Shown here: positions 14 to 64,000 of the stretch, in pieces
Layout: each line of letters begins with the position of its first letter
How positions within the stretch are numbered: position 1 is the first letter of the stretch
Assembly (NCBI GenBank): GCA_005502445.1
Contig: SCPB01000001.1
Span: 1-64,000, forward strand
From: Microbacteriaceae bacterium X2B
GTDB lineage: Bacteria > Actinomycetota > Actinomycetes > Actinomycetales > Microbacteriaceae
Direction: 5' to 3'
DNA length: 64,000 bases
Program-made: the position numbers and the translations under genes
Notes under the pieces: model-generated
What the model saw: the letters and a program-made list of their open reading frames with translations, nothing else
What the model was told of the DNA's origin: nothing
Database searches by the model: none

Positions 14-1132
14 ATGGAGATCGAGATCGGGCGGGCCAAGCGGGCGAGGAGGGCGTACTCCTTCGACGACATCGCGGTGGTCCCCAGCCGCCGCACGCGC
101 GACCCCGAGGTGGTGTCGCTGGCGTGGAGCATCGACGCCCTGAAGTTCGAGATCCCGGTGATCGCCGCCCCGATGGACTCCGTCGTGAGCCCCGCGACGG
201 CGATCGCGATCGGCCGGCTCGGCGGTCTCGGCGTGCTCGACCTCGAGGGCCTCTGGACCAGGTACGAGGATGCCGCGGCGCAGCTCGAGCGCATTCGCGA
301 CCTCGACCCCGCAGAGGCGACCGCGGCGATGCAGCGCATCTACGCCGAGCCGATCAAGCCCGAGCTGATCAGCGCCCGGCTGGCCGAGATCCGCGCGGCC
401 GGCGTGCCCGTCGCCGCCGCGCTCAGCCCCCAGCGCACGCAGGAGCACCACCAGGCCGTCATCGATGCCGGCGTCGACCTCTTCGTGATCCGCGGCACGA
501 CCGTGAGCGCCGAGCATGTGTCGAAGTCGGCCGAGCCCCTCAACCTCAAGAAGTTCATCTACGAGCTCGACGTGCCCGTCATCGTGGGCGGCGCCGCGAC
601 CTACACCGCCGCGCTGCACCTCATGCGCACAGGGGCGGCGGGCGTGCTCGTCGGCTTCGGCGGCGGTGCTGCGTCGACGACGCGCCTGAGCCTGGGCATC
701 CACGCGCCGATGGCGACCGCGGTCAGCGACGTCGCCGCCGCGCGACGCGACTACCTCGACGAGTCGGGCGGCCGCTACGTGCACGTCATCGCCGACGGCG
801 GCCTCGGCACGAGCGGCGACATCGTCAAGGCGGTCGCGATGGGCGCCGACGCGGTCATGCTGGGCAGCACCCTGGCGCGGGCGACGGATGCTCCCGGCGG
901 GGGCTGGCACTGGGGGGCCGAGGCGCACCACCCCGAACTGCCGCGCGGCAACCGCGTGCACGTCGGCCAGCTCGCCCCGCTCGAGCAGCTGCTGTTCGGC
1001 CCGAGCTCGCACGCCGACGGGCAGGTCAACCTCATGGGGGCCTTGCGCCGCTCGATGGCGACGACCGGCTACTCCGACCTCAAGGAGTTCCAGCGGGTCG
1101 ACGTCGTCGTCGCGCCCTACCAGGGCCACTGA
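14..1132 (+). CDS. guaB3: GuaB3-family IMP dehydrogenase-related protein
   Basis: A 372-residue protein with a single (beta/alpha)8 IMPDH/GMPR-type barrel and no CBS domains, the layout of the actinobacterial GuaB3 paralogue rather than catalytic GuaB. Visible motifs are YSFDDIAVVPSRRTR near the N-terminus, APMDSVVSP at about residues 50-58 and a glycine-rich phosphate-binding region (VIADGGLGTSGD). The loop that carries the catalytic Cys in true IMPDH reads GGGAASTTR, so the Cys is Ser; other actinobacterial GuaB3 proteins I recall also lack it, and the enzymatic role is therefore uncertain. I prefer the ATG at 14 over an adjacent GTG at 11 because GGAG at 5-8 is then better spaced. It lies upstream of SURF1, DUF3817 and guaA, which fits purine metabolism. 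Confidence 0.88.
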   Translation: MEIEIGRAKRARRAYSFDDIAVVPSRRTRDPEVVSLAWSIDALKFEIPVIAAPMDSVVSPATAIAIGRLGGLGVLDLEGLWTRYEDAAAQLERIRDLDPAEATAAMQRIYAEPIKPELISARLAEIRAAGVPVAAALSPQRTQEHHQAVIDAGVDLFVIRGTTVSAEHVSKSAEPLNLKKFIYELDVPVIVGGAATYTAALHLMRTGAAGVLVGFGGGAASTTRLSLGIHAPMATAVSDVAAARRDYLDESGGRYVHVIADGGLGTSGDIVKAVAMGADAVMLGSTLARATDAPGGGWHWGAEAHHPELPRGNRVHVGQLAPLEQLLFGPSSHADGQVNLMGALRRSMATTGYSDLKEFQRVDVVVAPYQGH

Positions 1133-1138
1133 CCGACC

Positions 1139-1879
1139 GTGTGGCGCATCGCCCGCCGACCGAAGTGGATCGCGGCCCTGCTGCTCGCGCTCGGCGTCGC
1201 GGCCGGGTTCGCGGCGCTCGGGCAGTGGCAGCTCGAACGCTCGATCGATGAGGCGACGGTCGTCGAGCGCGACACCGAGACGCCCGTGCCGCTGCAGAGC
1301 GTCGCCGAGCCGCAGACGGTCATGACCTCCGACGCGAGCGGGCGTCGGGTGGTGGTCGAGGGTTCGTGGGTCGAGGGCGACGAGGTGATCGTGACGGGCC
1401 GCGAGAGTGCGGGGGAGCCCGGCGACTGGGTCATCCGGCACTTCGAGACGAGCGACGGAGCCGGCCTCGCGGTCGCCGTCGGGTACGTCGCTCCGGGGGC
1501 GGGCATCCCGAGCCTGCCGGTCGGCGAGGCGCGCCTCCTCGGCCGCTATGTGCCGAGCGAGTCGCCGCAGCAGTCCGATTTCGAGGCGGGCGAGCGCACC
1601 GCGATCGCCGTCGCCGAGCTCATCAACCTGTGGGGGGACGTCGAGACCGTCTACTCCGGATACCTGGTTCTCGAGGATGCCCCCGCACCGCTCGCCGTCA
1701 TCGCGGCACCGCCGCCCGAGGCCGACGTCGAGCTCAACCTGCTCAACCTGTTCTACGCGATCGAGTGGGCCGTCTTCGGCGGATTCGCCGTGTACCTGTG
1801 GTGGCGCCTCGTGCGCGACGAGTGGGAGAAGGAGCAGGCGGAAGACCCCGCGCGGAGCGGGCTCAGCGCGCGCCCCTAA
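1139..1879 (+). CDS. SURF1-family cytochrome oxidase biogenesis protein
   Basis: A 246-residue membrane protein with the SURF1 layout: an N-terminal transmembrane helix (residues about 10-27) running into the family motif LGQWQLERS, a long extracytoplasmic domain, and a C-terminal helix ending in a charged tail ([14 protein letters not shown]). SURF1 proteins help insert haem a during assembly of the aa3-type cytochrome c oxidase. The GTG start lies 6 nt after the guaB3 stop, so the two are probably co-transcribed, although nothing links the functions. The hydrophobic helices, length and motif make the family call firm; a direct role in this organism's oxidase is by homology. Confidence 0.88.
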
Positions 1880-1888
1880 ACTTGCAGC

Positions 1889-2337
1889 ATGGCGCTCGGC
1901 CCTCAGGCTTCAGACATCCCGCTCATCCGCCGCACGCTCGCGGTGTTCAAGGTCTCGTCGATCGTCACGGGCACCTTTCTGCTCGGCCTCGTCGTGATGA
2001 TGGTCACGCGCTACGGCTTCGGGCGCGACATCGAGCTCGGCGGCGCCGAGGGGCTGCTCGCGCTCACCCCCCGCGACGAGCTCGTCGGGTTCAACCTCTC
2101 GATCATGCTGCTGACGGTGCACGGCTGGCTCTACGTCGTCTACCTCGCCTGCGACTTCGTCCTGTGGCGCGTTGCCTACCAGGGCGCCGTGCGCAACGCA
2201 TTCCTGCGCTTCCTGTGGATCGCGATGGGTGGCATCATCCCCTTCCTCTCCTTCTTCTTCGAGCGGCAGGTGCCGCGCGAGGTCGAGGCGATCATCGCCC
2301 CCCTCGACCAGCAGCCCACGACCCAGGAGGCCTCCGC

Positions 2338-2341
<4 letters not shown>
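1889..2341 (+). CDS. DUF3817 integral membrane protein
   Basis: A 150-residue protein with about three transmembrane helices and the DUF3817 signature: an N-terminal [18 protein letters not shown] helix, a [14 protein letters not shown] helix and an [15 protein letters not shown] helix followed by a charged tail. Function is unknown; in actinobacteria this gene is often found next to guaA, as here. A TAAACT -10 element ends 6 nt before the ATG, so the mRNA is probably leaderless with its own promoter inside the SURF1 3' end. The stop TGA overlaps the guaA GTG start (GTGA), which indicates translational coupling. Confidence 0.85.
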
Positions 2342-3905
<1,564 letters not shown>

Positions 3906-7133: not shown

Positions 7134-9551
7134 ATGACGTTCCTGCCCGACGAGTCCCTCGACATCCCCGGCCTGACCCCGCCGGCGGGCGCCGCGGGCG
7201 CTGCCGCGAGCGCGCCTCCGTCGGCGGCGCGCAACGACGATCCGCTGCTCGCAGGGCTCAACCCGCAGCAGCGCGCGGCCGTCGAGTCGCGGGCCGACGC
7301 GCTGCTCATCGTGGCGGGCGCCGGCTCGGGCAAGACGAGCGTGCTCACGCGGCGCATCGCGCGCCTGCTGCGCGATCGCGAGCTGTGGCCGAGTCAGATC
7401 CTCGCGATCACCTTCACCAACAAGGCCGCGGGCGAGATGCGCGAGCGCGTCGGTCAGCTCATCGGGCGCGACGCCGCCGAGGGGATGTGGATCTCGACGT
7501 TCCACTCGGCCTGCGTGCGCATCCTCCGCCGCGAGGCGCAGCAGTTCGGTTTCACCCAGGCCTTCACGATCTACGACTCGGCCGACTCGCGCGCGCTCAT
7601 CAAGCGCATCGTGAAGGACCTCCAGGCCGACACTCTCGGCCTCACGGTGAGCGCTGCGGCGGGCAAGATCTCGCGGTTGAAGAACGAGCTCATCGACGCC
7701 GAGGGCTACAGCAGGCAGATCAACCCCAACGACCCGACCGAGGTGATGTTCCTCGAGGTGTTCCGGCGCTACTCGGCCGAGCTGCTGCGCGCGAACGCCT
7801 TCGACTTCGACGACCTCATCGCGCAGACCGTGTACCTCTTCCGCGCGTTCCCCCAGGTCGCGGCCCTGTATCAGCGGCGGTTCCGGCACCTCCTCGTCGA
7901 CGAGTACCAGGACACGAACCACGCGCAGTACGCTCTCATCCGCGAGCTGACGCGGCCGGTCGAGCCGCAGCACGTGCCCGCCGACACGCGCATCGAGACG
8001 GATGCCTCGGGCGGCATCCCCGCGGCATCCCTCACGGTCGTCGGCGACTCCGACCAGTCGATCTACGCCTTCCGCGGCGCCGACATCCGCAACATCGTCG
8101 AGTTCGAGCGCGACTTCCCGGGCGCGCAGGTGATCCTGCTCGAGCAGAACTACCGTTCGACCCAGACGATCCTCGACGCCGCGAATGCCGTCATCGGCAA
8201 CAACTTCGACCGCACGCCCAAGAATCTCTTCACCGAGGTCGGCGCGGGCGAGAAGATCGTCGGCTTCACCGGCTACAGCCAGCACGACGAGGCGCAGTTC
8301 GTCGCCGACGAGATCCAGCAGCTGCACGAGGCCGGCGTGCCGTACAACCAGATCGCCGTGTTCTATCGCACCAATGCTCAGACCCGTGCGCTGGAGGAGA
8401 TCTTCATCCGCTCCGCCCTGCCGTACCGCGTGCTCGGCGGCACGAAGTTCTACGAGCGAGCCGAGATCAAAGACGTCATGGCGTACCTCATCGCGGTCGC
8501 GAATCCGGCCGACGGCCTCGCCCTGCGGCGCATCCTCAACACCCCGAAGCGCGGCATCGGGCCGGCCACCGAGACGGCGCTCGCGAACCATGGCGACCAA
8601 CTGGGGGGAACGATGCGCGATGCGCTGCGGGATGCCGCGGCTCTCGGCCTCGGACCGAAGGTCACCACGGCCATCCTCGACCTCGCGCGCATCCTCGACG
8701 AGACGACTGAGATCGTCGACTCGGCGCTGGTGCCGGATGTGCTCACGGGCATTCTCGAGAAGACGAAGTACGTCGAGCTCCTGCGCGCGAGCCGCGACCC
8801 GCAGGATGAGGCCCGCGCCGAGAACGTGGAGGAGCTCGTGGCGGTCACGCGCGAGTTCCAGCGCAACAACCCCGAGGGCCGGCTCGTCGACTTCCTCACC
8901 GAGGTGGCGCTCGTCGCCGCGGCCGACGACCTCGATGACTCGAGCGGCACCGTCTCGCTCATGACTTTGCACACCGCGAAAGGCCTCGAGTACGACGCCG
9001 TCTTCATCACGGGGGTGGAGGAGAACCTGCTGCCGCACCAGATGAGCGCGAGCGAACCCGGCGGCCCGGCTGAGGAGCGCCGGCTGTTCTACGTCGGCAT
9101 CACGCGAGCCCGCACGCGGCTGCACCTCTCGCTGGCGATGACCCGCTCGACCTTCGGCGACACGCAGGTCGCGGCGCCCAGCCGCTATCTGCAGGAGATC
9201 CCCGCCGGGCTCATCGACTGGCGCGACGCCCCCGGCATGGGAATGCGGTCGAGCACCTCCGCGCAGCGCGCGCTCGGCACGACCCGCGGCGGCCGGGAGC
9301 AGTTCAGCTACGGAGCCTCGCTGCCGCCCGGCAAGCCGAAGACCGAGTGGGCGAACCGCGTGACCGCAACGGTGCGCGACAACGGCGATCTGTCGCTCGA
9401 GGTCGGCGACCGCATCCGCCACGTCGACTTCGGCGAGGGGCGTGTCACGGGCGTCACGGGTGTCGGCGCGAAGAGCATCGCCGAGGTGCAGTTCGAGACC
9501 GCGGGGCGCAAGCGCTTGCTGATCAAGATCGCTCCGATCGAGAAGATCTGA
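7134..9551 (+). CDS. pcrA: ATP-dependent DNA helicase PcrA/UvrD
   Basis: Superfamily 1A 3'-5' helicase of 805 residues. Motif I is GAGSGKTSVLTRRIARL (about 61-77), followed by TFTNKAAGEM (Ia), DEYQDTNHAQY (II), GDSDQSIYAFRGADI (III), LLEQNYRST (IV), TLHTAKGLEYD (V) and YVGITRARTRL (VI). A C-terminal Tudor-like domain (VGDRIRHVDFGEGRVTGV) is typical of PcrA, which displaces RNA polymerase and RecA filaments and works in excision repair. The ATG at 7134 follows a TAGACT -10 by 9 nt. No LexA box is seen. Confidence 0.97.
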   Translation: MTFLPDESLDIPGLTPPAGAAGAAASAPPSAARNDDPLLAGLNPQQRAAVESRADALLIVAGAGSGKTSVLTRRIARLLRDRELWPSQILAITFTNKAAGEMRERVGQLIGRDAAEGMWISTFHSACVRILRREAQQFGFTQAFTIYDSADSRALIKRIVKDLQADTLGLTVSAAAGKISRLKNELIDAEGYSRQINPNDPTEVMFLEVFRRYSAELLRANAFDFDDLIAQTVYLFRAFPQVAALYQRRFRHLLVDEYQDTNHAQYALIRELTRPVEPQHVPADTRIETDASGGIPAASLTVVGDSDQSIYAFRGADIRNIVEFERDFPGAQVILLEQNYRSTQTILDAANAVIGNNFDRTPKNLFTEVGAGEKIVGFTGYSQHDEAQFVADEIQQLHEAGVPYNQIAVFYRTNAQTRALEEIFIRSALPYRVLGGTKFYERAEIKDVMAYLIAVANPADGLALRRILNTPKRGIGPATETALANHGDQLGGTMRDALRDAAALGLGPKVTTAILDLARILDETTEIVDSALVPDVLTGILEKTKYVELLRASRDPQDEARAENVEELVAVTREFQRNNPEGRLVDFLTEVALVAAADDLDDSSGTVSLMTLHTAKGLEYDAVFITGVEENLLPHQMSASEPGGPAEERRLFYVGITRARTRLHLSLAMTRSTFGDTQVAAPSRYLQEIPAGLIDWRDAPGMGMRSSTSAQRALGTTRGGREQFSYGASLPPGKPKTEWANRVTATVRDNGDLSLEVGDRIRHVDFGEGRVTGVTGVGAKSIAEVQFETAGRKRLLIKIAPIEKI

Positions 9552-9646
9552 GCGGCTCTGACACCCCGCTCGCCTCGATTGCAGGTTTCCGGCTCCCGCG
9601 CACCGCAGAATGGAGTCCGAACGAGCACCCCACGCTAGGAGACCCC

Positions 9647-9982
9647 ATGGAACTCGCCTCGATCCAGCATCCGCGAGGAGTCACCGAGCTGGCGCTCTCC
9701 GGCCGACTCAACATGGTGACAGCCGCACGCGTGCGCGAGGCGATCCACGAGGCGATCGTGGCGAACAGCTCGAACATCGCCGTCGATCTCTCGCACGTCT
9801 CCTTCCTCGACTCCTCCGGGCTCGGCGCCCTCGTGTGGGGCTTCAAGGCGGCGCGCGAATCCGGCGGAACCTTGCGCCTCATCAATCCCACCGAGCAGGT
9901 CGTCCTCGTTCTGGAGCTCACGAACATGGGGTCGACCCTGCGCGCGTTCTCGAGCGTCTCCGAAGCGTTCCCGCATGACTGA
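9647..9982 (+). CDS. STAS-domain anti-sigma factor antagonist (first copy)
   Basis: A 111-residue single-domain STAS protein of the RsbV/SpoIIAA type. The conserved helix start VSFLDSSGLGALVWG carries the serine that the partner kinase phosphorylates. AGGAG lies 6 nt before the ATG. Its stop overlaps the next gene, which contains both a kinase-like and a phosphatase domain, so phosphorylation and dephosphorylation of this protein could both be served by that one polypeptide (inference). A close paralogue lies at 11609-11944; both carry RLNMVTA near the N-terminus. Confidence 0.9.
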   Translation: MELASIQHPRGVTELALSGRLNMVTAARVREAIHEAIVANSSNIAVDLSHVSFLDSSGLGALVWGFKAARESGGTLRLINPTEQVVLVLELTNMGSTLRAFSSVSEAFPHD

Positions 9983-11591
9983 GATGGTGGCGCGCACGCT
10001 GCGCATCACCGCCCCGCCCGACACCGTCGACACCGTGCACGACGCGCTCGCCGCCGTGTGGTCGTCCGTGCCCGACCTGCATTCGAACGACCGGATGTCG
10101 GTGGAGACAGCGGTCATCGAACTCACCTCGAACGTCATCCAGTACGCCAATCGCGGCGGCGACGTCGCTTTCGCGCTGACCGTCATCGTGTACCCCGATC
10201 GCATCGAGGCGACCCTGAGCGACGGCGGCGCGGTCAGCGATGTCGGGTTGCACTCGCGCGGCATGCCCGAGCCGCTCGCGGAGTCGGGCCGGGGGATCCC
10301 GATGATCCAGGCCCTCGTCGACACGGTCGAGCATCGCCGCGTCGACGGCTTCAACCACTGGACGCTCGTGCGGGCGCGCGAGGTCGTCCGCGACGAGCTG
10401 CATCCGGCGCGCGACATGCCCTCGGTGTCGATCAGCGGCGTCATCGACGAGATGGCGCGCCAGCGCGCGCTCGAGGAGCTGTCGATCCTCGACACGCCGC
10501 CCGAGGAGCGCTTCGACCGCGTCACCCGCCTCGCACGGCAGCTGTTCGGCGTCTCCGGCGCCGCGATCAACTTCATCGATCGAGACCGGCACTGGTCGAA
10601 GTCCATCGTCGGCGAGATCCCGAGCGAGATCCCGCGCGAGTTCTCGCCGTGCGCGCGGACCATCCAGTCGGACCAGACGCTCATCGTCGCCAACCTCCTG
10701 GCGTCCCCCGACTTCCGGCAGATCGCCGTGCCAGGAATCGTGGAGTTCTACGCCGGGCACCCTCTCTACGCGGCGGGCGGTGAACGCATCGGCTCGTTCT
10801 GCGTCTTCGACTCCGCGCCCCGTCACTTCACCGAGAAGGAGGCCGCGATGCTGCGCGACCTCGCCTCGTGGGCGCAGCAGGAACTGAGCGTGAGCCAGGA
10901 GCTCAGCCGCGCCGCCGACGTTCAGCAGGGACTGCTCCCGCAGCAGCTGCTGAGCATGCCCGGGTGGGACATCGCGGGGATGTGCCTGCCCGCGCGCGCT
11001 GTCGGCGGCGACTTCTACGACTGGTACCCGGTCGGCGAGGGTGCGGCGATCACGCTCGCCGACACGATGGGCAAGGGCATCGGCGCCGCGATCATCGCCG
11101 CGACCGTGCGGGCGGTGCTGCGATCGGCGGCGCGATTCGGTGACGTGGCCGGCGCGGTCGACGCGGCCGCGGCATCCCTCACCGGCGACCTCGACAGCAC
11201 GGGCCTGTTCGTCACGCTCTTCCACGGGCGTCTGAACATGGACTCCGGCGAACTCATGTATGTCGATGCCGGGCACGGGCTCACGTTCATCGCCCGCGCG
11301 AACGGAGACATCGACCGCTTGAAGTCGACGGCGCCCCCTCTGGGCATCGACATCGAGACCGAGTGGATTCCGGTCGGCGTCGAGCTCGCCCCCGGCGACA
11401 GTCTCGTCAGCGTGAGCGACGGCGTGCTCGACCTGTACGAGGGCGTGAGCCAGGCATTCGAGAGCCTCGCCTCGCTGGTGCTGCTCGCCACGAGCGCGCA
11501 GGAGGTCGTCGACGCGATGAAGCTGCGCGCACGCGGGGTCGCCCCCGACGATGTGACCGTGCTCGTCGTGCGGCGCGCGACCGCGGATTGA
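9975..11591 (+). CDS. HATPase (RsbW-like) + GAF + SpoIIE-type PP2C phosphatase fusion
   Basis: A 538-residue fusion. Residues about 8-140 form a GHKL ATPase like RsbW/SpoIIAB (N-box ELTSNVIQYANRGG, LSDGGAVSD, SGRGIPMI). Residues about 160-320 form a GAF sensor domain (RFDRVTRLARQLFGVSGAAI). The remainder is a PPM/SpoIIE phosphatase with its metal-binding aspartates intact (AVGGDFYDW, LADTMGKG, SDGVLDLYEG, APDDVTVLVV). No transmembrane segment is visible. Such proteins set the phosphorylation state of STAS antagonists in response to a ligand on the GAF domain. It overlaps the upstream STAS gene by 8 nt and is followed by a second STAS-kinase pair. The ligand and the target sigma factor are unknown. 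Confidence 0.9.
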   Translation: MTEMVARTLRITAPPDTVDTVHDALAAVWSSVPDLHSNDRMSVETAVIELTSNVIQYANRGGDVAFALTVIVYPDRIEATLSDGGAVSDVGLHSRGMPEPLAESGRGIPMIQALVDTVEHRRVDGFNHWTLVRAREVVRDELHPARDMPSVSISGVIDEMARQRALEELSILDTPPEERFDRVTRLARQLFGVSGAAINFIDRDRHWSKSIVGEIPSEIPREFSPCARTIQSDQTLIVANLLASPDFRQIAVPGIVEFYAGHPLYAAGGERIGSFCVFDSAPRHFTEKEAAMLRDLASWAQQELSVSQELSRAADVQQGLLPQQLLSMPGWDIAGMCLPARAVGGDFYDWYPVGEGAAITLADTMGKGIGAAIIAATVRAVLRSAARFGDVAGAVDAAAASLTGDLDSTGLFVTLFHGRLNMDSGELMYVDAGHGLTFIARANGDIDRLKSTAPPLGIDIETEWIPVGVELAPGDSLVSVSDGVLDLYEGVSQAFESLASLVLLATSAQEVVDAMKLRARGVAPDDVTVLVVRRATAD

Positions 11592-11608
11592 GACTGAGGG
11601 AGAACACG

Positions 11609-11944
11609 ATGGAGTTCCACACCCGATCGCTCGACGGCGGCGTCATCGTCATCGCCCCGGCCGGCAGGCTCAACATGGTCACAGCCGGGACGCTGCGCGA
11701 TGAGATCGCCCGACACGTCGAGGGGGGATCGACGCGCATCGTCGTCGACCTGGCCGGCGTCGACTTCATGGACTCCTCGGGCCTCGGCAGTCTCATCAGC
11801 GGCCTGAAGTCGACGCGACAGGCGGGCGGCGATCTGCGCATCGCCGCCGCCACCGAGCAGGTCATGCTCGTGCTGACCCTGACCAACATGGATCGCGTCC
11901 TCGTGCCGCACCCGAGCGTCGAGACGGCGTTCGACGATGCCTGA
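11609..11944 (+). CDS. STAS-domain anti-sigma factor antagonist (second copy)
   Basis: A 111-residue RsbV-like STAS protein with the phosphorylatable serine in VDFMDSSGLGSLISG. It has the same length as the first copy and is clearly paralogous (shared RLNMVTA near the N-terminus, TNM near the C-terminus). GAGGGAGA precedes the ATG. The stop overlaps the start of the free-standing kinase gene that follows. Confidence 0.9.
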   Translation: MEFHTRSLDGGVIVIAPAGRLNMVTAGTLRDEIARHVEGGSTRIVVDLAGVDFMDSSGLGSLISGLKSTRQAGGDLRIAAATEQVMLVLTLTNMDRVLVPHPSVETAFDDA

Positions 11945-13719: not shown

Positions 13720-14622
13720 ATGTCGATCTTCCTCAACAAAGACTCCCGCGTCATCGTCCAGGGCATCACGGGTGGCGAGGGCACCAAGCACACCGCGCTC
13801 ATGCTCAAGGCCGGCACTCAGGTCGTCGGCGGCGTCAACGCCCGCAAGGCCGGCACGGCCGTCGCGCACACCGCTGCCGACGGCTCGGCCGTCGAGCTCC
13901 CCGTCTACGCGACGGTCGCCGATGCCATGGTGCAGACGGGCGCCGACGTCTCGATCGCCTTCGTGCCGCCGGCCTTCGCGAAGGATGCCGCGATCGAGGC
14001 CATCGACGCGGGCATCCCGCTGCTCGTGATCATCACCGAGGGCATCCCCGTGCTCGACTCGGCCGAGGTCTGGGCCCACGCCAAGGCCAAGGGCGGCGCG
14101 ACGCGCATCATCGGCCCCAACTGCCCCGGCATCATCACGCCGGGCGAGTCGCTCGTCGGCATCACGCCCGCGACGATCACGGGCAAGGGCCCGATCGGCC
14201 TCGTGTCGAAGTCGGGCACGCTGACGTACCAGATGATGTACGAGCTGCGCGACCTGGGGTTCTCGACCGCGATCGGCATCGGCGGCGACCCGATCATCGG
14301 CACGACTCACATCGACGCCCTCGCGGCGTTCGAGGCCGACCCCGAGACGAAGGCGATCGTCATGATCGGCGAGATCGGCGGCGACGCCGAGGAGCGCGCG
14401 GCCGACTTCATCAAAGCCAACGTCACGAAGCCCGTCGTCGGCTACGTCGCGGGTTTCACCGCCCCCGAGGGCAAGACGATGGGCCACGCGGGCGCGATCG
14501 TCTCCGGCTCGGCCGGCACGGCGCAGGCGAAGAAGGAGGCCCTCGAGGCCGCCGGCGTCAAGGTCGGCAAGACGCCGAGCGAGACCGCCGCCCTCATGCG
14601 CGAGGTCATCGCGGCGCTGTAG
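13720..14622 (+). CDS. sucD: Succinyl-CoA synthetase, alpha subunit
   Basis: A 300-residue CoA-binding subunit. The Rossmann domain begins with [15 protein letters not shown], and the phosphorylated histidine is in [15 protein letters not shown] near residue 250. [10 protein letters not shown] and [10 protein letters not shown] are typical of the family. It is co-transcribed with sucC and ends before a strong hairpin. All expected regions are present. Confidence 0.97.
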
Positions 14623-14634
14623 GTGCGATCGACA

Positions 14635-14670
14635 CGAGGGCCCCTCTCCGCGCGCGGCGAGGGGCCCTCG
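14635..14670. terminator. Bidirectional hairpin terminator between sucD and the VOC gene
   Basis: Perfect 12-bp arms CGAGGGCCCCTC and GAGGGGCCCTCG enclose a 12-nt GC-rich loop. It sits 12 nt after the sucD stop and 5 nt after the stop of the convergent VOC-family gene, so it can serve both. It has no clear T-tract. Confidence 0.75.
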
Positions 14671-14675
14671 CGCGA

Positions 14676-15047
14676 TCAGCGGGCCTGGCTGACGCAGAGG
14701 AAGTTACCCTCGCTGTCCCGGAACCACGCGCAGCGCAGATCGGTGCCCTCGACGACGCCGTTCACGGTCGTCATTCCGGGCATGTCGTACTCCTCGAATG
14801 CGACGCCATTGGCGCGCATGACGGCCATCTCGCCGTCGAGGTCGTCGGTCATCCACCCCATCTGCGTGTTCTGAGCGGTGCCGGCGTTCGGCGTCTCGTA
14901 GATCTCGAACTCGGCGCCCGGGGCGGGGTGGAACACGAGGGAGCCCTCGCGGGTCTCGTCGGGGTCGAGGCCGAGCTTGTCGTGGTAGAACGTGCGTGCT
15001 CGTTCGAGGTCCGCCGCGGGCAGGACAGTGTGCAGTGCTTTCATCAT
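14676..15047 (-). CDS. VOC (glyoxalase/bleomycin-resistance) family protein
   Basis: A 123-residue single vicinal-oxygen-chelate module: KALHTVLPAADLERARTFYHDKLGLDPDE at the start, EFEIYETP in the middle and CAWFRDSEGNFLCVSQ at the end. The pattern fits small dimeric VOC proteins of unknown substrate rather than glyoxalase I. The ATG at 15047 follows GAAGGAGA by 6 nt. It is a single gene convergent with sucD. Metal-binding residues cannot be assigned confidently. Confidence 0.82.
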   Translation of the reverse strand: MMKALHTVLPAADLERARTFYHDKLGLDPDETREGSLVFHPAPGAEFEIYETPNAGTAQNTQMGWMTDDLDGEMAVMRANGVAFEEYDMPGMTTVNGVVEGTDLRCAWFRDSEGNFLCVSQAR

Positions 15048-15269
15048 GAGCCGTCTCCTTCGATGGCTGGAGCGATCCGAAGTGACGATGCGGGGCCGGC
15101 AACGCTCGTTCCGGCGCCGACGCATCGTCGTGCGGGAGGAGGAGAGGGGAGCCGCGCTCGGGCGGGACGGTCTCGGGCTCCACGGTCGCCGGGCGCGCCC
15201 GGCGCTAGTGCTGACGCCGCGAGCATACCCCCGCGGTCGTCCGACGACCAGAGGTGCCCCGTGCGGCGT

Positions 15270-16040
15270 TCAGTCGTCGTCGCGCGGCGCGACCGTCGGC
15301 GGCCAGCTCGGGGCGCCGAGCTCGCGCGAGATGTTGCGCGCGGTCTCGCGCAGGTCGTTGAGCACGCCAGCCTCGGGCGGCCACTCGCTCGAGGGCATGA
15401 CGACGGAGACGGCGGCGATGACCGCACCGCTGCGGTCGACCACGGGGACGGCGACAGAGGATTCACCGAGCACGGCCTCGTCGACCTCGACCGCGAGCGC
15501 GCGCTCGACGACCTGGGCGAGCTGCAGGCGCAGCGCCGCCGCGTCGGTGATCGTGTCGCCCGTGAGGCTGCGCAGCTCCTTCGCGAGCAGCTCGTCGGCC
15601 GCGGAGAGGTGATAGGCGAGCAGCACCTTGCCGAGCGCCGAGGCGTGCACGGGGATCGTGATGCCCGTCTCGAGCATCTGCTGGCTGCCGTCGGGGCGCC
15701 GATTGTGGTGGATGATGATGACCTCGTCGAACAGCTCGGCGCCCAGCCGCGTCGACAGGCCCGTCCGGCGGGCGAGCTCGCGGGTCCAGCGCATCGCGCG
15801 CGCCCTGACGTCGAGGGTGTCGAGGTAGACGTTCGAGAGCTTGAGCAGGGCGGGGCCGAGCATGTAGCGCTGACCGCCCGGTTCCTTCGCGACGAGGCCG
15901 TGCTGCTGCAGCGACTTCACGATGCCGTGCACGGTCGACGGCGGCAGGTCGAGGATGCCCGCGAGCTCGGTGATGCCGAGGTGGCGAGCGCCCTGCAGGG
16001 AGGAGAGCACGCGCGCGGCGCGGTCGATCGCCTGGATCAT
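15270..16040 (-). CDS. IclR-family transcriptional regulator
   Basis: A 256-residue regulator with an N-terminal winged helix-turn-helix (MIQAIDRAARVLSSL, GITELAGILDLPPSTVHGIVKSL) and a C-terminal IclR effector domain (GSQQMLETGITIPVHASALGKVLLAY, VAVPVVDRSGAVIAAVSV). It is divergent from the dhaKLM operon and almost certainly controls it, perhaps with dihydroxyacetone or a glycerol metabolite as effector (inference). GAGGAGA precedes the ATG. Two matching inverted repeats in the intergenic region are candidate binding sites. Confidence 0.92.
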   Translation of the reverse strand: MIQAIDRAARVLSSLQGARHLGITELAGILDLPPSTVHGIVKSLQQHGLVAKEPGGQRYMLGPALLKLSNVYLDTLDVRARAMRWTRELARRTGLSTRLGAELFDEVIIIHHNRRPDGSQQMLETGITIPVHASALGKVLLAYHLSAADELLAKELRSLTGDTITDAAALRLQLAQVVERALAVEVDEAVLGESSVAVPVVDRSGAVIAAVSVVMPSSEWPPEAGVLNDLRETARNISRELGAPSWPPTVAPRDDD

Positions 16041-16094
16041 CGCACGTCTCCTCTCGTCGTCGAGCGGGTGGTTCTGGGAGTCGCCGGTCGGCTC

Positions 16095-59481: not shown

Positions 59482-59626
59482 TGTCAGCAGCAAGACTGAC
59501 TTGCGCAGCACGAACTCGATTCCCCCCAATCGCGTGCTGCCGAGGCGGCGCCCATTCCCCCCAAGTTGGGCGCCGCCCCCCAGTTCAGCGAACGGCTCCT
59601 CCCCACGAGGAGCCGTTCGTCTTTTC
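59482..59626 (+). ncRNA. 6C RNA (actinobacterial sRNA)
   Basis: About 145 nt. Two stem-loops expose runs of six cytosines: stem CGATT/AATCG around CCCCCC (59522-59527), extended by GCAGCACG/CGTGCTGC, and stem GGCGGCGCCC/GGGCGCCGCC around TTCCCCCCAAGTT (C run 59557-59562). A Rho-independent terminator, CGAACGGCTCCT/AGGAGCCGTTCG (59589-59619) plus TCTTTTC, ends it. This is the defining structure of 6C RNA. In Mycobacterium tuberculosis the homologue (B11) lies at the ssd/Tad-like locus, and C-rich loops pair with G-rich ribosome sites of mRNAs; the location here, just before tadA and near acs, matches that synteny. Confidence 0.93.
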
Positions 59627-59665
59627 TCCGCACCGCGCGCGCTGTCCGGGGGAGGGCGCTCGGTC

Positions 59666-60781
59666 ATGCGGGATTCTCGCGGGATGCCCGCCGTCGCCGC
59701 CTTCGTTCCGATCGACCCGAGACGGCGAGGCGATGGCAGGGCGCCCGCCGTCGCCCGTGCGCTCCCGGCGGCATTCCGCGCGCTTCTCGGGCCGCTCGCG
59801 GCCGTCGTCGACGACCCCGCGGCGACGGACGTCTTCGTGACAGGCGACGGCTCGGTCTGGCGCGATGCCGGCGGCGGGGCCGAGCGCGTGCCGGATGCGC
59901 GACTCGACCCCGCCGCCGCCCGAGAACTCGCGGTGCGGGTCATCGAGCACGGCGGCCGGCACATCGACGAGGCCACGCCGTGCGCCGACGTGCGCATCGG
60001 CGACGGCGTCCGCGTGCATGCCGCGCTGCCGCCCATCGCGCGGGCGGGCGCGGAGCTGTCGATCCGGCTCCCGCGCACGATTCCGGTGACCCTGGAGTCC
60101 GCCGGGCTTCCCGATGCGATCGTCGTCGTGCTCCGCACGGCGCTCGAGGAACGGCGCACGCTCCTGGTGACGGGGGCGACGGGCAGCGGCAAGACGACCC
60201 TCCTCTCGGCCTGGCTCTCCGCCGCGCCCCCGACCGACCGCATCATCCTCATCGAGGATGTCGCCGAGGCGCGCATAGTCCACCCTCACGTCGTCGGGCT
60301 CGAGTGCCGCCAGGCCAATCTCGAGGGCGCCGGCGAGATCGACCTGGCCCGACTGGTGCGCGAAGCCCTGCGGATGCGCCCCGACCGGCTCGTGGTCGGA
60401 GAATGCCGCGGTGCGGAGGTCCGCGAGTTCCTCGCGGCGCTCAACACGGGCCACCGCGGAGGTGCCGGGACGCTGCACGCGAACTCCCTCGCGGACGTCC
60501 CGAGCCGGCTCGAGGCGGTCGGCATGATCGCCGGGCTCGACCCGCTCGCCCTCGCGCGACAGGCGCTGAGCGGCATCGACCTCATCGTGCACCTCCGCCG
60601 TGCGCCGGATGGCTCCCGCTCGGCTTCGCTCGGGCGATTCGCGCTCGACGCCCGCGAGCGGCTCACAGTGGTCGAGATCGACCCGCGCGTCGCGGTCGAC
60701 CCGACGCCGTGCCGCTCGGCACGATTCGACGGCACCCCATCGACCGACCGCGACGGAGGAGGGTCTGATGACCGCTCGTGA
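59666..60781 (+). CDS. Tad pilus/secretion ATPase (TadA/CpaF family)
   Basis: A 371-residue type II/IV secretion ATPase. N-terminal DPAATDVFVTGDGSVW region, Walker [17 protein letters not shown], Asp box IILIEDVAEARI, Walker B RPDRLVVGECRGAEVREFL and GHRGGAGTLHANS His box are in order. It should energise assembly of Flp-type pili with the T2SSF membrane protein downstream. GGGGGAGGG lies 9 nt before the ATG at 59666. The septum-site (ssd/TadZ-like) gene often preceding it is absent. It overlaps the next gene by 14 nt. Confidence 0.9.
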   Translation: MRDSRGMPAVAAFVPIDPRRRGDGRAPAVARALPAAFRALLGPLAAVVDDPAATDVFVTGDGSVWRDAGGGAERVPDARLDPAAARELAVRVIEHGGRHIDEATPCADVRIGDGVRVHAALPPIARAGAELSIRLPRTIPVTLESAGLPDAIVVVLRTALEERRTLLVTGATGSGKTTLLSAWLSAAPPTDRIILIEDVAEARIVHPHVVGLECRQANLEGAGEIDLARLVREALRMRPDRLVVGECRGAEVREFLAALNTGHRGGAGTLHANSLADVPSRLEAVGMIAGLDPLALARQALSGIDLIVHLRRAPDGSRSASLGRFALDARERLTVVEIDPRVAVDPTPCRSARFDGTPSTDRDGGGSDDRS

Positions 60782-61733
60782 CGACGACGAACTCTCGAGC
60801 CACGTGCACCGCGTCGCGGTGCTCATCGCTGCGGGCATCGCGCCGGTCTCGGCGTGGCGGCACGTCGCTGAGGCGGCCAGGCCGGCCGACCCGGTTCTCG
60901 ATGCGGTCGTCGAGCGCCTCGACGCCGGCGACCCCGTCGCGAGAGCGCTCACCGCCGTCGCGACGGAACGCGGTTCAGCCTGGCGCGCACTGTCCGCCGC
61001 ATGGGTCGTGGCGGCGGCGAGCGGCGCCCCGCTCGCTCCCGCCCTCGACGCGTTCGCCGTGGCTGTCCGCGACCGCGCTGCCGCGCAGCGCGACGTCGCC
61101 GTCGCGCTCGCGAGCCCGCGCGCGACGGCGCGGGTGGTGCTCGTCCTGCCGCTCGTCGCGGTGCTGCTCGCCCTGCTCATGGGCGTCGACCTCGCTGCCG
61201 CCGCAGCGCATCCTCTCGGCGCCGCGAGCATCATCATCGGCCTCGCGCTCGCCGTGCTCGCGCGGGTCTGGATGCGTCGACTGCTGCGGGCGGCCCAGCC
61301 GCCTCCGCCGACCGCGGGGCTCGACCTCGAGCTGCTCGCGGTCGCCGCCGCGGGCGGCGGCTCGCCCGAGTCGGCGCGCCGGCTCGTCGCGGAGACGATG
61401 AGGGCGGCCGGACTCGATGGCGGTCCATCGCGCGGCGGAGTCGAGCCGCGCAGATCGCGGGCGGACTCGCGCGCGGCGGGCGAGCCGCTCGACGCGCTCG
61501 AAGCCCTCGTCGTCCTATCGCGCCGGTCGGGTGCCCCGCTCGGCGCCCTCGCGCGTGCGGAGGCCGCCGACGAGAGGCTGCGCGCGCGCTCCGCCGCGCG
61601 CGAGGCGGCGGAGCGGCTGGGCGTTCGACTCATGCTCCCGCTCGGCGCCTGCGTGCTGCCGTCATTCATGCTGCTGGGCGTCGTGCCGATGATCGTCGGA
61701 ATCGTCTCCTCCACAGCCGCAGTCGCATCGTGA
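60768..61733 (+). CDS. Type II secretion F-domain Tad membrane protein
   Basis: A 321-residue protein with three to four transmembrane helices (VVLVLPLVAVLLALLMGV; AASIIIGLALAVLARV; C-terminal CVLPSFMLLGVVPMIVGIVS) and T2SSF-like cytoplasmic segments, as in TadB/TadC. Actinobacterial Tad loci usually have separate TadB-like and TadC-like genes; here one gene carries both an early (ELSSHVHRVAVLIAAGIAPV) and a late T2SSF-like segment. GGAGGAGGG precedes the ATG. Its last 50 codons are repeated at 63572-63723. Confidence 0.83.
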   Translation: MTARDDDELSSHVHRVAVLIAAGIAPVSAWRHVAEAARPADPVLDAVVERLDAGDPVARALTAVATERGSAWRALSAAWVVAAASGAPLAPALDAFAVAVRDRAAAQRDVAVALASPRATARVVLVLPLVAVLLALLMGVDLAAAAAHPLGAASIIIGLALAVLARVWMRRLLRAAQPPPPTAGLDLELLAVAAAGGGSPESARRLVAETMRAAGLDGGPSRGGVEPRRSRADSRAAGEPLDALEALVVLSRRSGAPLGALARAEAADERLRARSAAREAAERLGVRLMLPLGACVLPSFMLLGVVPMIVGIVSSTAAVAS

Positions 61734-61852
61734 TCGACCCCGAGCCTCGTCACGTCGGACCACGTACCGCGCGGCCCCGTGCACAATCGACCTGTTCGTG
61801 CCGCACACCGCCGCTCCTCGCCGAATGCGACGAGCGCTCGATCGATCGGAAG
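61582..61852 (+). repeat. 271-bp direct repeat, left copy
   Basis: Covers the last 152 nt of the T2SSF gene plus 119 nt of intergenic sequence. It recurs at 63572-63842, offset by 1990 bp, with a single mismatch (C at 61804, T at 63794). The match breaks abruptly at both ends. Confidence 0.95.
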
Positions 61853-61869
61853 TGTAAGGTCTTGGCACC

Positions 61870-62289
61870 CTAAAGCGCTTGCGAGCACTCGACAGGCCTC
61901 GCGGCGTGCCACTCCTTGTTCACGAGAACGAAACTCGACCCGGATGCAAGGTCGCAGGTCCATTCGCCTTCGCCGTCCACCAGTTCTATACGACTCGGAA
62001 GATTGATCCCGTCGGACGCAAGGAGTCGGGCCCAGTCAGCAGTGAGCTTCAGGGAGGTGGGAACGTCGTCGTGCGGGCCGCAGACGAGCACGTCGCTTCC
62101 GACAAGCGTCTGCGCTTTCGACAAGGGGAAATCAGGCACGTCGGCGGACTCTGGGCAGGACGCTGGGGAGGGCGTCGGCTCTGGGCCGGGAGTGCATCCG
62201 GACGCGAGAACGATCACGACGAGGGGCAGCAGTGTCCACGGCCGCCTCCGGTAGGTCACCCGACTGTAGCGCCCGTGCCGCCCGGCCAT
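61870..62289 (-). CDS. Small lipoprotein, function unknown
   Basis: A 139-residue protein with a basic N-terminus, hydrophobic core LLPLVVIVL and lipobox LASGC (Cys 32), then a Pro/Thr linker (TPGPEPTPSPAS) and a small domain with four cysteines that could form two disulfides (CPESA, VCGPHDD, WTCDLA, VECSQ). I do not recognise the domain. It overlaps the 3' end of the protease gene by 34 nt in another frame, so the two are co-transcribed. It may be a partner, immunity or anchoring protein for the protease (inference). Confidence 0.8.
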   Translation of the reverse strand: MAGRHGRYSRVTYRRRPWTLLPLVVIVLASGCTPGPEPTPSPASCPESADVPDFPLSKAQTLVGSDVLVCGPHDDVPTSLKLTADWARLLASDGINLPSRIELVDGEGEWTCDLASGSSFVLVNKEWHAARPVECSQAL

Positions 62290-63512
62290 GCTCGCACCCC
62301 GCTCAACTGTGTGCAGTAGTACCTGAGGGAAGGAGTGGAGAATCTGGCAGTGACAATACCTGCGACTGTCACTCCGCCAGCGCCGTCCGAGTAATAGCAC
62401 GTGCCGCCAGAGTCGCCCGGTTGAGCTCCGTTCCAGTCCGCACCGCTTCCGCCGGTGCTATCGTGTCGCATCTCCAGCATCTGACCCGTAACAATCCCGT
62501 CGACAGTGCGAGTACTGTAGGAGTTAGTGACGTAGTAGCGGCAGATCTGCCCGGTCGTCCTTCCTGATGTGCACACCGCTGAACCGTTCGGCCGTCCGCC
62601 CCACACGGCTCCGGAAATCGCCAGGCTCGTTGTTCCGTAGACGTCGCCGTTGAAGACGCGCATTCCATACGTTGATCCGTAAAGCAGCTTCCAATCACCG
62701 TAGATGTCTGCGTTTCCAGGGTAGGCGGTTGTGTATTGGTTGCCGACGAGGTTACCGGCGTTGGTGAAGCTGGTCGCAGTGCAGTGCCCAGCGGTGAGCA
62801 GTCGATGCACTCCCGCGAATGTGATTCGAACACCAGACGAGCAATAGCCGCTGGCAGATACGAGTTCGCCACCCATCCAGTACGGTGCAGTGTCGGCCTT
62901 CCTTGTTACAAGGGTTTCACCCTCTCCACCGGGATCAGTGACAATCTGAACCGCGGAATACTCGGTGCGGTCGAGCTCTCGCTGCACGCGAGCGGCAACC
63001 TCACCCTGATCGCTCCCAGGTCGGACCTCAATGAGCAGCGCGCCGGAGTAGATGTCGGGGGCGAACCCCATCACGGCGTCTGAGAGGTCACGTTCCATGA
63101 CGCTCTGTCCCGCAGAGATTAGAGTATCGAGGCTCGCGGGGACTTCGTAGGCGATTACCGGGTACGGTTTCCCAGCGGCGATTCCGTCGATTCGTTCGGC
63201 CAATGCTCCGGCGGTCGGCGTCATGAAGACGGCGACGCCATCGAACCCAGAGCAGAACGCCACGCCCGTCGCAACGTCGGTGTGCTCGTCGACGAGAGCT
63301 TGGACTTCGTTGGCGAGAAGGTCAAGCTCCGCGCTCGCTTGCCCATCCCAGACCTGTTCACCGTTCTCGTCAAACCGAAGACAAGAATCAGGACTTGTTC
63401 CTTCCTCCGTGTGCACGTCGACCGTCGACGCGTGCTGCGCCATAGCGGGTGCGGAGACTATAGCCAACCCCGCTGCGATCATTGCCCCTAGAATCATTAC
63501 GATTCGCCGCAC
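62256..63512 (-). CDS. Secreted chymotrypsin-like (S1 family) serine protease
   Basis: A 418-residue exported protease. The signal peptide (residues 1-25, AAGLAIVSAPAMA) is followed by a propeptide of about 180 residues (ending near TLVTRKADTAPYWMGGE) and a mature S1 domain with the triad His 243 (LLTAGHC), Asp 269 or 273 (NADIYGDWKLL) and Ser 368 (PGDSGGTC). Six or so cysteines suggest three disulfides, as in streptogrisin/alpha-lytic enzymes. The GTG has an ideal AGGAGGT ribosome site 5 nt upstream; a longer frame into the repeat is spurious. It is the leading gene of the inserted cassette, with a promoter at the right junction. Confidence 0.92.
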   Translation of the reverse strand: MRRIVMILGAMIAAGLAIVSAPAMAQHASTVDVHTEEGTSPDSCLRFDENGEQVWDGQASAELDLLANEVQALVDEHTDVATGVAFCSGFDGVAVFMTPTAGALAERIDGIAAGKPYPVIAYEVPASLDTLISAGQSVMERDLSDAVMGFAPDIYSGALLIEVRPGSDQGEVAARVQRELDRTEYSAVQIVTDPGGEGETLVTRKADTAPYWMGGELVSASGYCSSGVRITFAGVHRLLTAGHCTATSFTNAGNLVGNQYTTAYPGNADIYGDWKLLYGSTYGMRVFNGDVYGTTSLAISGAVWGGRPNGSAVCTSGRTTGQICRYYVTNSYSTRTVDGIVTGQMLEMRHDSTGGSGADWNGAQPGDSGGTCYYSDGAGGVTVAGIVTARFSTPSLRYYCTQLSGVRAWPGGTGATVG

Positions 63513-63539
63513 GGTGACCTCCTCGCCGATCGGCTGCAT

Positions 63540-63545
63540 ATTATC
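63540..63545 (-). promoter_or_regulatory. -10 element of the inserted protease gene at the cassette junction
   Basis: On the minus strand GATAAT, within TGATAATAT, lies about 28 nt before the GTG and about 26 nt inside the cassette's right end. A matching -35 would fall at the edge of the repeat (TCTTTC, 17-bp spacing). The cassette therefore appears to carry its own AT-rich promoter. Confidence 0.5.
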
Positions 63546-63571
63546 AGCTGCCAAATCGCGGCGAAAGAGCT

Positions 63572-63723
63572 GCGCGCGCTCCGCCGCGCGCGAGGCGGCG
63601 GAGCGGCTGGGCGTTCGACTCATGCTCCCGCTCGGCGCCTGCGTGCTGCCGTCATTCATGCTGCTGGGCGTCGTGCCGATGATCGTCGGAATCGTCTCCT
63701 CCACAGCCGCAGTCGCATCGTGA
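63572..63723 (+). pseudogene. 3' fragment of the T2SSF Tad gene (duplicate)
   Basis: The last 50 codons of the T2SSF gene, identical to 61582-61733 in the coding part and ending at the same TGA (63721-63723). It lacks the first 270 residues and a start, so it is a remnant produced by the duplication. Confidence 0.92.
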
Positions 63724-63842
63724 TCGACCCCGAGCCTCGTCACGTCGGACCACGTACCGCGCGGCCCCGTGCACAATCGACCTGTTCGTGCCGTACACCG
63801 CCGCTCCTCGCCGAATGCGACGAGCGCTCGATCGATCGGAAG
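63572..63842 (+). repeat. 271-bp direct repeat, right copy
   Basis: One-mismatch copy of 61582-61852. Its last 119 nt supply the natural upstream region of the pilin-like gene, including the GGAAGA before the ATG at 63847, so the pilin's local context is intact while its distance from the tad promoter is increased by 1990 bp. Confidence 0.95.
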
Positions 63843-63846
63843 ACCC

Positions 63847-64000
63847 ATGGCTCGAACTCTCTCCTCCCTCATGCGCTCGTGGCGCTCGCGGTCGGTGCTC
63901 GCCGACGACACCGGTGCGGCGACCGCCGAATACGCGATCGCGACGATGGCCGCGGTCGGGTTCGCGAGCCTGCTCGTCGTCATCATGCGCAGTGACGAGG
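63847..64000 (+). CDS. DUF4244/Flp pilin-like protein (cut by the window end)
   Basis: The first 51 codons of a small pilin-like protein: a basic leader (MARTLSSLMRSWRSRSVLAD) followed by DTGAATAEYAIATMAAVGF and the hydrophobic helix FASLLVVIM. GAATAEYA resembles the type IV/Flp pilin processing region with conserved Glu-Tyr, as in DUF4244 proteins encoded next to tad genes. It is the probable substrate of the TadA/T2SSF machinery. The gene continues past base 64000. Confidence 0.85.
   Translation, partial: MARTLSSLMRSWRSRSVLADDTGAATAEYAIATMAAVGFASLLVVIMRSDE

Follow-up and report, generated by a model that had tools for sequence, protein, structure and literature searches.

The locus and its 271-bp duplication

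The DNA analyzed here (the window) comprises the first 64,000 nucleotides of contig SCPB01000001.1, a 198,440-bp contig in the draft assembly of Microbacteriaceae bacterium X2B (GCA_005502445.1). Near the right-hand end of the window, two genes encoding a predicted exported serine protease and a small lipoprotein lie between the T2SSF gene of a Tad-like pilus locus and a DUF4244 pilin-like gene, and this two-gene unit is bounded on either side by a copy of the same 271-nt segment. The unit and its borders contain the following features.

61582..61852, plus strand: left repeat copy, made up of the 3'-terminal 152 nt of T2SSF, which is intact, and 119 nt downstream
61853..63571, no strand assigned: inserted unit of 1719 bp with the two-gene pair, GC 0.614, beginning 17 bp after the lipoprotein stop codon and ending 59 bp upstream of the protease start
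61870..62289, minus strand: lipoprotein partner, 139 aa, with lipobox Cys32 (read by eye) and four further Cys
62256..63512, minus strand: pre-pro-serine protease, 418 aa, GTG start, with a signal peptide read by eye
63517..63523, minus strand: AGGAGGT, read by eye as the ribosome-binding sequence of the protease gene, ahead of its GTG
63572..63842, plus strand: right repeat copy, holding the 3' end of T2SSF only and ending 4 bp before the pilin ATG

The direct repeat, recognized in an earlier sequence-only reading of this DNA, was confirmed: 61582-61852 corresponds to 63572-63842 at a spacing of 1990 bp, with a single substitution (C at 61804, T at 63794). The left edge is blurred in a gapped alignment, where CT(GC)5 faces CT(GC)4 and is followed by weak similarity over about ten bases, to 61568/63559. 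A search of the whole genome with the 271-nt segment returned just its two sites in the window, and the sequence between the copies is single-copy in the same genome. On the contig (C19 in our numbering), the 271-bp pair is the sole direct repeat of at least 60 bp and at least 95% identity. Outside the window, no direct repeat of at least 40 bp and at least 95% identity with copies 0.8 to 8 kb apart was found in 389,191 bp of the genome (134,440 bp of the same contig and 254,751 bp of others), compared in stretches of up to 20 kb such that pairs spanning a border went unseen. The pair is a long direct repeat of target DNA, the T2SSF 3' end plus intergenic sequence, around the inserted genes.

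Comparison with related genomes identified the corresponding empty sites. T2SSF was found in 25 of 26 genomes of the genus, X2B included (G025 gave no match), and in all 24 of the others that carry it the T2SSF stop codon and the TAEYA motif of the pilin are 168 to 344 bp apart and the site is uninserted. The same distance is 2189 bp in X2B and falls to 199 bp once 1990 bp (one repeat copy and the unit) are subtracted. These 24 genomes represent other species, and their single repeat copy is deduced from the distance rather than from identical DNA. Empty sites in 24/24 relatives, together with the long target duplication, therefore mark the two genes as an insertion. The sequence-only reading had proposed an acquired protease-lipoprotein unit, had named empty sites in relatives as a check and had described the neighboring genes as preserved; all three points agree with our results, T2SSF and the pilin both being intact.

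The repeat and the empty sites give the locus the pattern of an insertion with long target duplication, a class named by Nobusato et al. 2000 for restriction-modification genes of Helicobacter pylori (PMC1643837, PMC3154945, PMC3031569, and PMC4978471, each available to us in part). The available part of PMC3031569 states that restriction-modification systems insert with long target duplications of variable length, and that the repeat-flanked forms are expected to amplify through unequal crossing-over. As in H. pylori, a presumably foreign unit lies between direct copies of the target, the uninserted allele has one copy, and no dedicated recombinase is described in those parts of the sources; unlike the H. 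pylori case, the host belongs to another phylum and the cargo is a secreted protease with an anchored partner, not a set of restriction-modification genes.

The genes on either side of the insertion are as follows.

59501..60781, plus strand: T2SSE (TadA-like) ATPase gene, start uncertain
60768..61733, plus strand: T2SSF (Tad) gene, intact, start uncertain
63847..64000, plus strand, continuing to contig position 64053: DUF4244 pilin-like gene (DUF4244 E 4.2e-20)

Beyond DUF4244 follow two short proteins whose matches to TadE- and Tad-like models fall short of the cut-offs; with T2SSE and T2SSF upstream, these matches make Tad-like a fair name for the locus. The earlier suggestion that the insertion may alter pilin expression was not borne out, the 119 bp of intergenic DNA and the 152 bp of the T2SSF 3' end having been copied intact in front of the pilin. 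Because 271 bp of native upstream DNA is kept there and the T2SSF-pilin gap in relatives is of similar size, a pilin promoter in that gap, if any, is predicted to be intact. If the pilin is instead transcribed by read-through from T2SSF, the insertion would part it from T2SSF.

The protease-lipoprotein pair

The borders of the inserted stretch fall just outside both ORFs. Its GC content of 61.4% lies below the contig mean of 69.8%, as the earlier description of a lower-GC cassette held, but 6.9% of contig windows are equally low; GC at third codon positions (GC3) is 0.67 in the protease gene and 0.76 in the lipoprotein gene versus 0.85 ± 0.11 in 96 long ORFs picked by a rough rule. Composition hence lends moderate support to a foreign origin of the unit. 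The two genes share 34 bp and both run on the minus strand, against the direction of the Tad genes; the overlapping pair was described correctly before, whereas its "opposite strand" applies relative to the Tad genes, since the protease and lipoprotein genes share the minus strand. No third gene could be read in the unit (its antisense ORFs without a family scan), and no inverted repeat of at least 20 bp occurs within 60-64 kb. The unit accordingly shows neither the recombinase gene nor the terminal inverted repeats of a transposon or integrase element, and the earlier statement that transposases and integrases are lacking holds. In 61500-64000, no sigma-70-type site came out of a simple promoter scan, and the one terminator-like site in this stretch is about the number seen in shuffled sequence. 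An anti-phage defence reading was rejected, as PADLOC returned no match. Outside the window, the same contig carries low-GC stretches from ~99 to at least 112 kb, possibly a genomic island.

The protease has a putative catalytic triad of H243, D273, and S368, assigned by motif and not by superposition; H243 and D273 are invariant and S368 is found in at least 90% of 22 aligned protease sequences. Alone, the protein has no Pfam match at E ≤ 1. Among the 22 aligned members, Trypsin is weakly matched by five (best E 0.0027) and Pro_Al_protease by just one (E 0.014), and a profile built from all 22 matches alpha-lytic protease with an E of 1.7e-6. The predicted structure (mean pLDDT 80.8) has a folded region at ~45-200 taken as the pro-region, a low-confidence linker at 202-209, and a catalytic domain at ~210-418; Foldseek related it to Streptomyces proteases, with an E of 2.9e-10 to 2sfa. 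The modeled fold and the His-Asp-Ser motifs point to an enzyme of the alpha-lytic/streptogrisin type, and the model together with the signal peptide is consistent with a pro-region and export. Fold, catalytic motifs, and pre-pro organization are those of the alpha-lytic/streptogrisin enzymes; the differences are an identity of 18-25% to the bacterial enzymes listed by Foldseek and the linked partner gene. Apart from the bacterial proteases, rice Nal1 is a further match to the model, with low identity but along most of the length.

The distribution of the protease is patchy. Its nearest relative in a protein search, the X2B protein itself aside, is 72% identical and is encoded on a 2.4-kb contig. 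In the 25 other genomes of the genus, the protease was not found except for one marginal match (E 8.1e-4), and across the order it was detected in 39 of 396 sampled genomes, with E below 1e-40 in eight of the 39 (X2B included).

The lipoprotein has few relatives in the protein search. Its cluster (window 61873-62289) occurs on 12 contigs there, hinting at further assemblies with possible other alleles. The mature lipoprotein was modeled with good confidence from 15 sequences, and the fold had no convincing structural match. Matches of the lipoprotein profile to "Pizza" proteins were rejected as kinship, because no single stretch in any of the 15 Pizza rows passes by itself. Aligned partner members are anchored by a lipobox; one homolog (L060:2669-3277) seems by eye to use a transmembrane segment for this in place of a lipobox.

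A profile of the partner was scanned against 42 distinct protease loci (L043-L087 and the X2B locus as input, without L002-L008, and leaving out L058, which is the X2B locus, L061, a duplicate of L048, and L064, a duplicate of L051). The partner lies directly downstream of the protease in 11 of 18 close loci, close meaning a best single protease segment of at least 100 bits (L043, L044, L046, L047, L048, L049, L052, L053, L054, L060, and L065), and beside none of the 24 distant relatives. Second partner copies, absent from the profile alignment, adjoin second protease copies in L049 and L052. The matches across these genomes argue that the protease gene is coupled to the small partner gene and that the coupling is kept. 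No library that we scanned gave a clear name for the pair, and a literature search on the pair with streptogrisin found nothing, which is weak evidence of absence. In the two Cutibacterium loci, the second protease-partner copies (L049:12378-13980 and L052:12483-13291) stand beside the first pair and are split over two or more frames. In Acidipropionibacterium thoenii (L046:9992-12244), a protease match divided between two frames precedes a tandem pair of partner lipoprotein copies.

The pair also occupies an otherwise empty position in Knoellia sinensis, where it lies between glnD and ffh (gene names from sequence reading), the ends of which are 1875 bp apart. In eight of eight other Knoellia genomes, 19-926 bp separate the glnD end from the ffh start, and neither gene of the pair was found in the stretches compared. 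These empty sites argue for more than one insertion of the pair in the past, and show that a long repeat is not a necessary trace of the event. On both sides of the Knoellia insertion stands an 8-bp TAACCTTG repeat, which is also present before ffh in three of four relatives compared and may merely be a promoter element.

Origin of the insertion

We consider it probable that a foreign protease-partner unit was inserted with duplication of a 271-bp target. The duplicated target, the uninserted sites of other species, the unit in its intact form, and the recurring pairing are direct observations, to which this reading adds that the unit would have come from another actinobacterium and entered between T2SSF and the DUF4244 pilin gene, the target being duplicated in the act and the neighbors left whole. 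Recombination of a repair type or a circle type, with no dedicated recombinase involved, could create such a structure in one step. It would result if a polymerase switched template and came back 271 bp upstream, or if DNA was captured at a widely staggered break. Classical end joining is disfavored because no Ku match was found in the X2B genome, in a search aimed at Ku and not at LigD or alternative end joining (Bacillus subtilis was positive among 14 controls). The repeats that remain would permit RecA-dependent loss, circle formation, or amplification. Of the mechanism offered by the sequence-only reading, the gain of a protease-lipoprotein unit stands, while its choice of a Campbell crossover or a duplication followed by insertion goes beyond what sequence can separate from template switching or break repair.

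Several observations weigh against this interpretation. The GC and GC3 of the unit are within the lower range of the genome and not beyond it. No same-species genome without the unit and no donor was seen in a sample with one genome per species. The profile alignment contained nine of the 11 partner-positive loci, so that only L060 and L065 are independent, and seven of the 18 close loci (L045, L050, L051, L059, L062, L063, and L066) have no partner match; the sequence downstream of the protease is only 538, 167, and 60 bp in L059, L062, and L066, and in L050 and L051 the protease is followed by other lipoprotein-like ORFs that the partner model does not match. Other loci of the pair also lack long flanking repeats: around the protease, L055 alone of 15 loci has a repeat of at least 40 bp and at least 95% identity, and it does not carry the same pair: its protease has 28% identity and its lipoprotein belongs to a different type.

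L055 comes from an actinobacterial metagenome-assembled genome, in which a perfect 46-bp direct repeat (9118-11647) encloses the distant protease and its small lipoprotein, the right copy ending 2 bp before the ATG of the next gene; no comparable neighbor was found that could provide an empty site for this repeat. About 2.3 kb further on (13961-16075), a gene for a 534-aa membrane protein lies between two copies (95%) of the terminal 121 bp of a ubiB-like gene. No such membrane-protein neighbor stands beside the ubiB-like gene in 15 relatives (12 with 1.5 kb beyond the gene end and three with 282-504 bp), and this arrangement is apparently a second insertion with target duplication in that genome. 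In 240,248 bp of the 15 loci, the 46-bp and 121-bp repeats are the sole direct repeats of at least 30 bp and at least 95% identity with copies 0.5 to 10 kb apart. Both were found post hoc, by looking, and are suggestive only. Among 29 further loci (L059-L087, two duplicates, up to 1.5 kb per side), just L083 reached at least 40 bp and at least 95%: a distant protease there (214-3447) is bracketed by two sets of direct repeats, one of 257 bp (93%) and one of 106 bp (97%). We rejected a plain target duplication in this case and read the repeats as repeated sequence, because a 385-bp piece has 11 matches in the genome, four of them strong and on one contig; the repeats recur on the contig of L083 and, weakly, in other parts of the genome. 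Flanking repeats at L045 (64 bp, 92%) and L060 (43 bp, 91%) were set aside, being read as lying in duplicated protease regions.

Other routes to the same arrangement were weighed. A Campbell-type event, in which a circle carrying the unit and one 271-bp copy, derived from a strain already duplicated, was recombined in by RecA, seems to us rather unlikely, although one crossover within 271 bp would leave precisely this structure and the single substitution would point to a donor circle from the same species. For moved genes with flanking repeats in Arabidopsis, the available part of PMC2869330 describes a comparable circle model. Such an event would explain the spread of the insertion but not its first copy, as the circle must already join host DNA to both ends of the unit. 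Nor was a close relative of the protease seen in the records searched for such carriers: phage records gave no match, plasmid records three, covering 41% at 33.7% identity, and viral contigs none, the left junction likewise having no exact match there. A tandem duplication of the 271-bp segment, followed by insertion of the unit exactly at the junction, would yield an identical structure; we regard it as quite improbable, since it needs two events and a precisely placed insertion, and the T2SSF-pilin gap of 168-344 bp in the 24 congeners, in which no tandem copy was searched for, leaves little room for one.

Two further accounts are weaker still. That the copies arose through misassembly or a mixed population is very improbable in our view. 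The assembly is a draft of 113 contigs, a repeat of 271 bp exceeds many short-read lengths, and an empty chromosome plus a circle (or a unit placed elsewhere) threaded through one repeat could give the same graph, which also counts against an insertion at this site; however, one substitution and one GC unit distinguish the two copies, and they lie in a contig of 198 kb. A mobile element whose recombinase has since been lost, with the repeat as a very long attachment site or target duplication, is the least credible of the alternatives. Some integrating elements bring along their own version of the 3' end of the gene they enter, but 271 bp far exceeds known attachment cores and transposon duplications, and the search of 60-64 kb gave no inverted repeat of at least 20 bp, nor was a further gene read in the unit.

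Predicted function and implications

The lipoprotein combines small size, anchoring, and a high cysteine content with its coupling to a secreted protease. For these reasons, we tentatively suggest, as the likeliest single role, that it may be a cell-bound inhibitor or immunity protein that shields the envelope of the producer from its own protease. Small genes coupled to secreted proteases have been described as inhibitors (staphopain, SpeB, and Bacteroides C10; PMC3462683), and the closest described arrangement that we found is that of the Bacteroides C10 proteases, which are coupled to staphostatin-like inhibitors, some of them predicted lipoproteins. The pair in X2B resembles the staphopain-staphostatin and Bacteroides C10 pairs in joining a secreted protease gene to a small gene; those are cysteine proteases, whereas the enzyme here is a serine protease, and the likeness is one of arrangement, with no homology claimed. 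We hold it possible, if somewhat doubtful, that the lipoprotein is instead a tether, a secretion or folding helper, or a receptor for products of the protease. Anchoring by a lipobox in the aligned members, and apparently by a transmembrane segment in L060, would suit such roles, and none of our tests points to inhibition; on the other hand, the protease has its own pro-region, which makes a separate folding helper less needed, and the described precedents are inhibitors.

By analogy with restriction-modification pairs, we also considered whether the protease and its partner could form a toxin-immunity-like selfish two-gene block that spreads and persists as those pairs do, which we regard as distinctly unlikely. 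If it were so, loss of the partner would harm cells through lingering protease, insertion with long target duplication would be one route of entry, and the repeats would permit excision, circle transfer, and amplification.

The recurring protease-lipoprotein pair brought to light here goes beyond the sequence-only reading, as does the published precedent for the pattern. The literature that we found on this mode of gene gain describes mainly Helicobacter restriction genes and includes no actinobacterial title; it is seen here in an actinobacterium and with a different cargo. Insertions of this type keep both neighboring genes whole, their trace in the sequence is open to searches, and they could explain gene gains that take place without a transposase.

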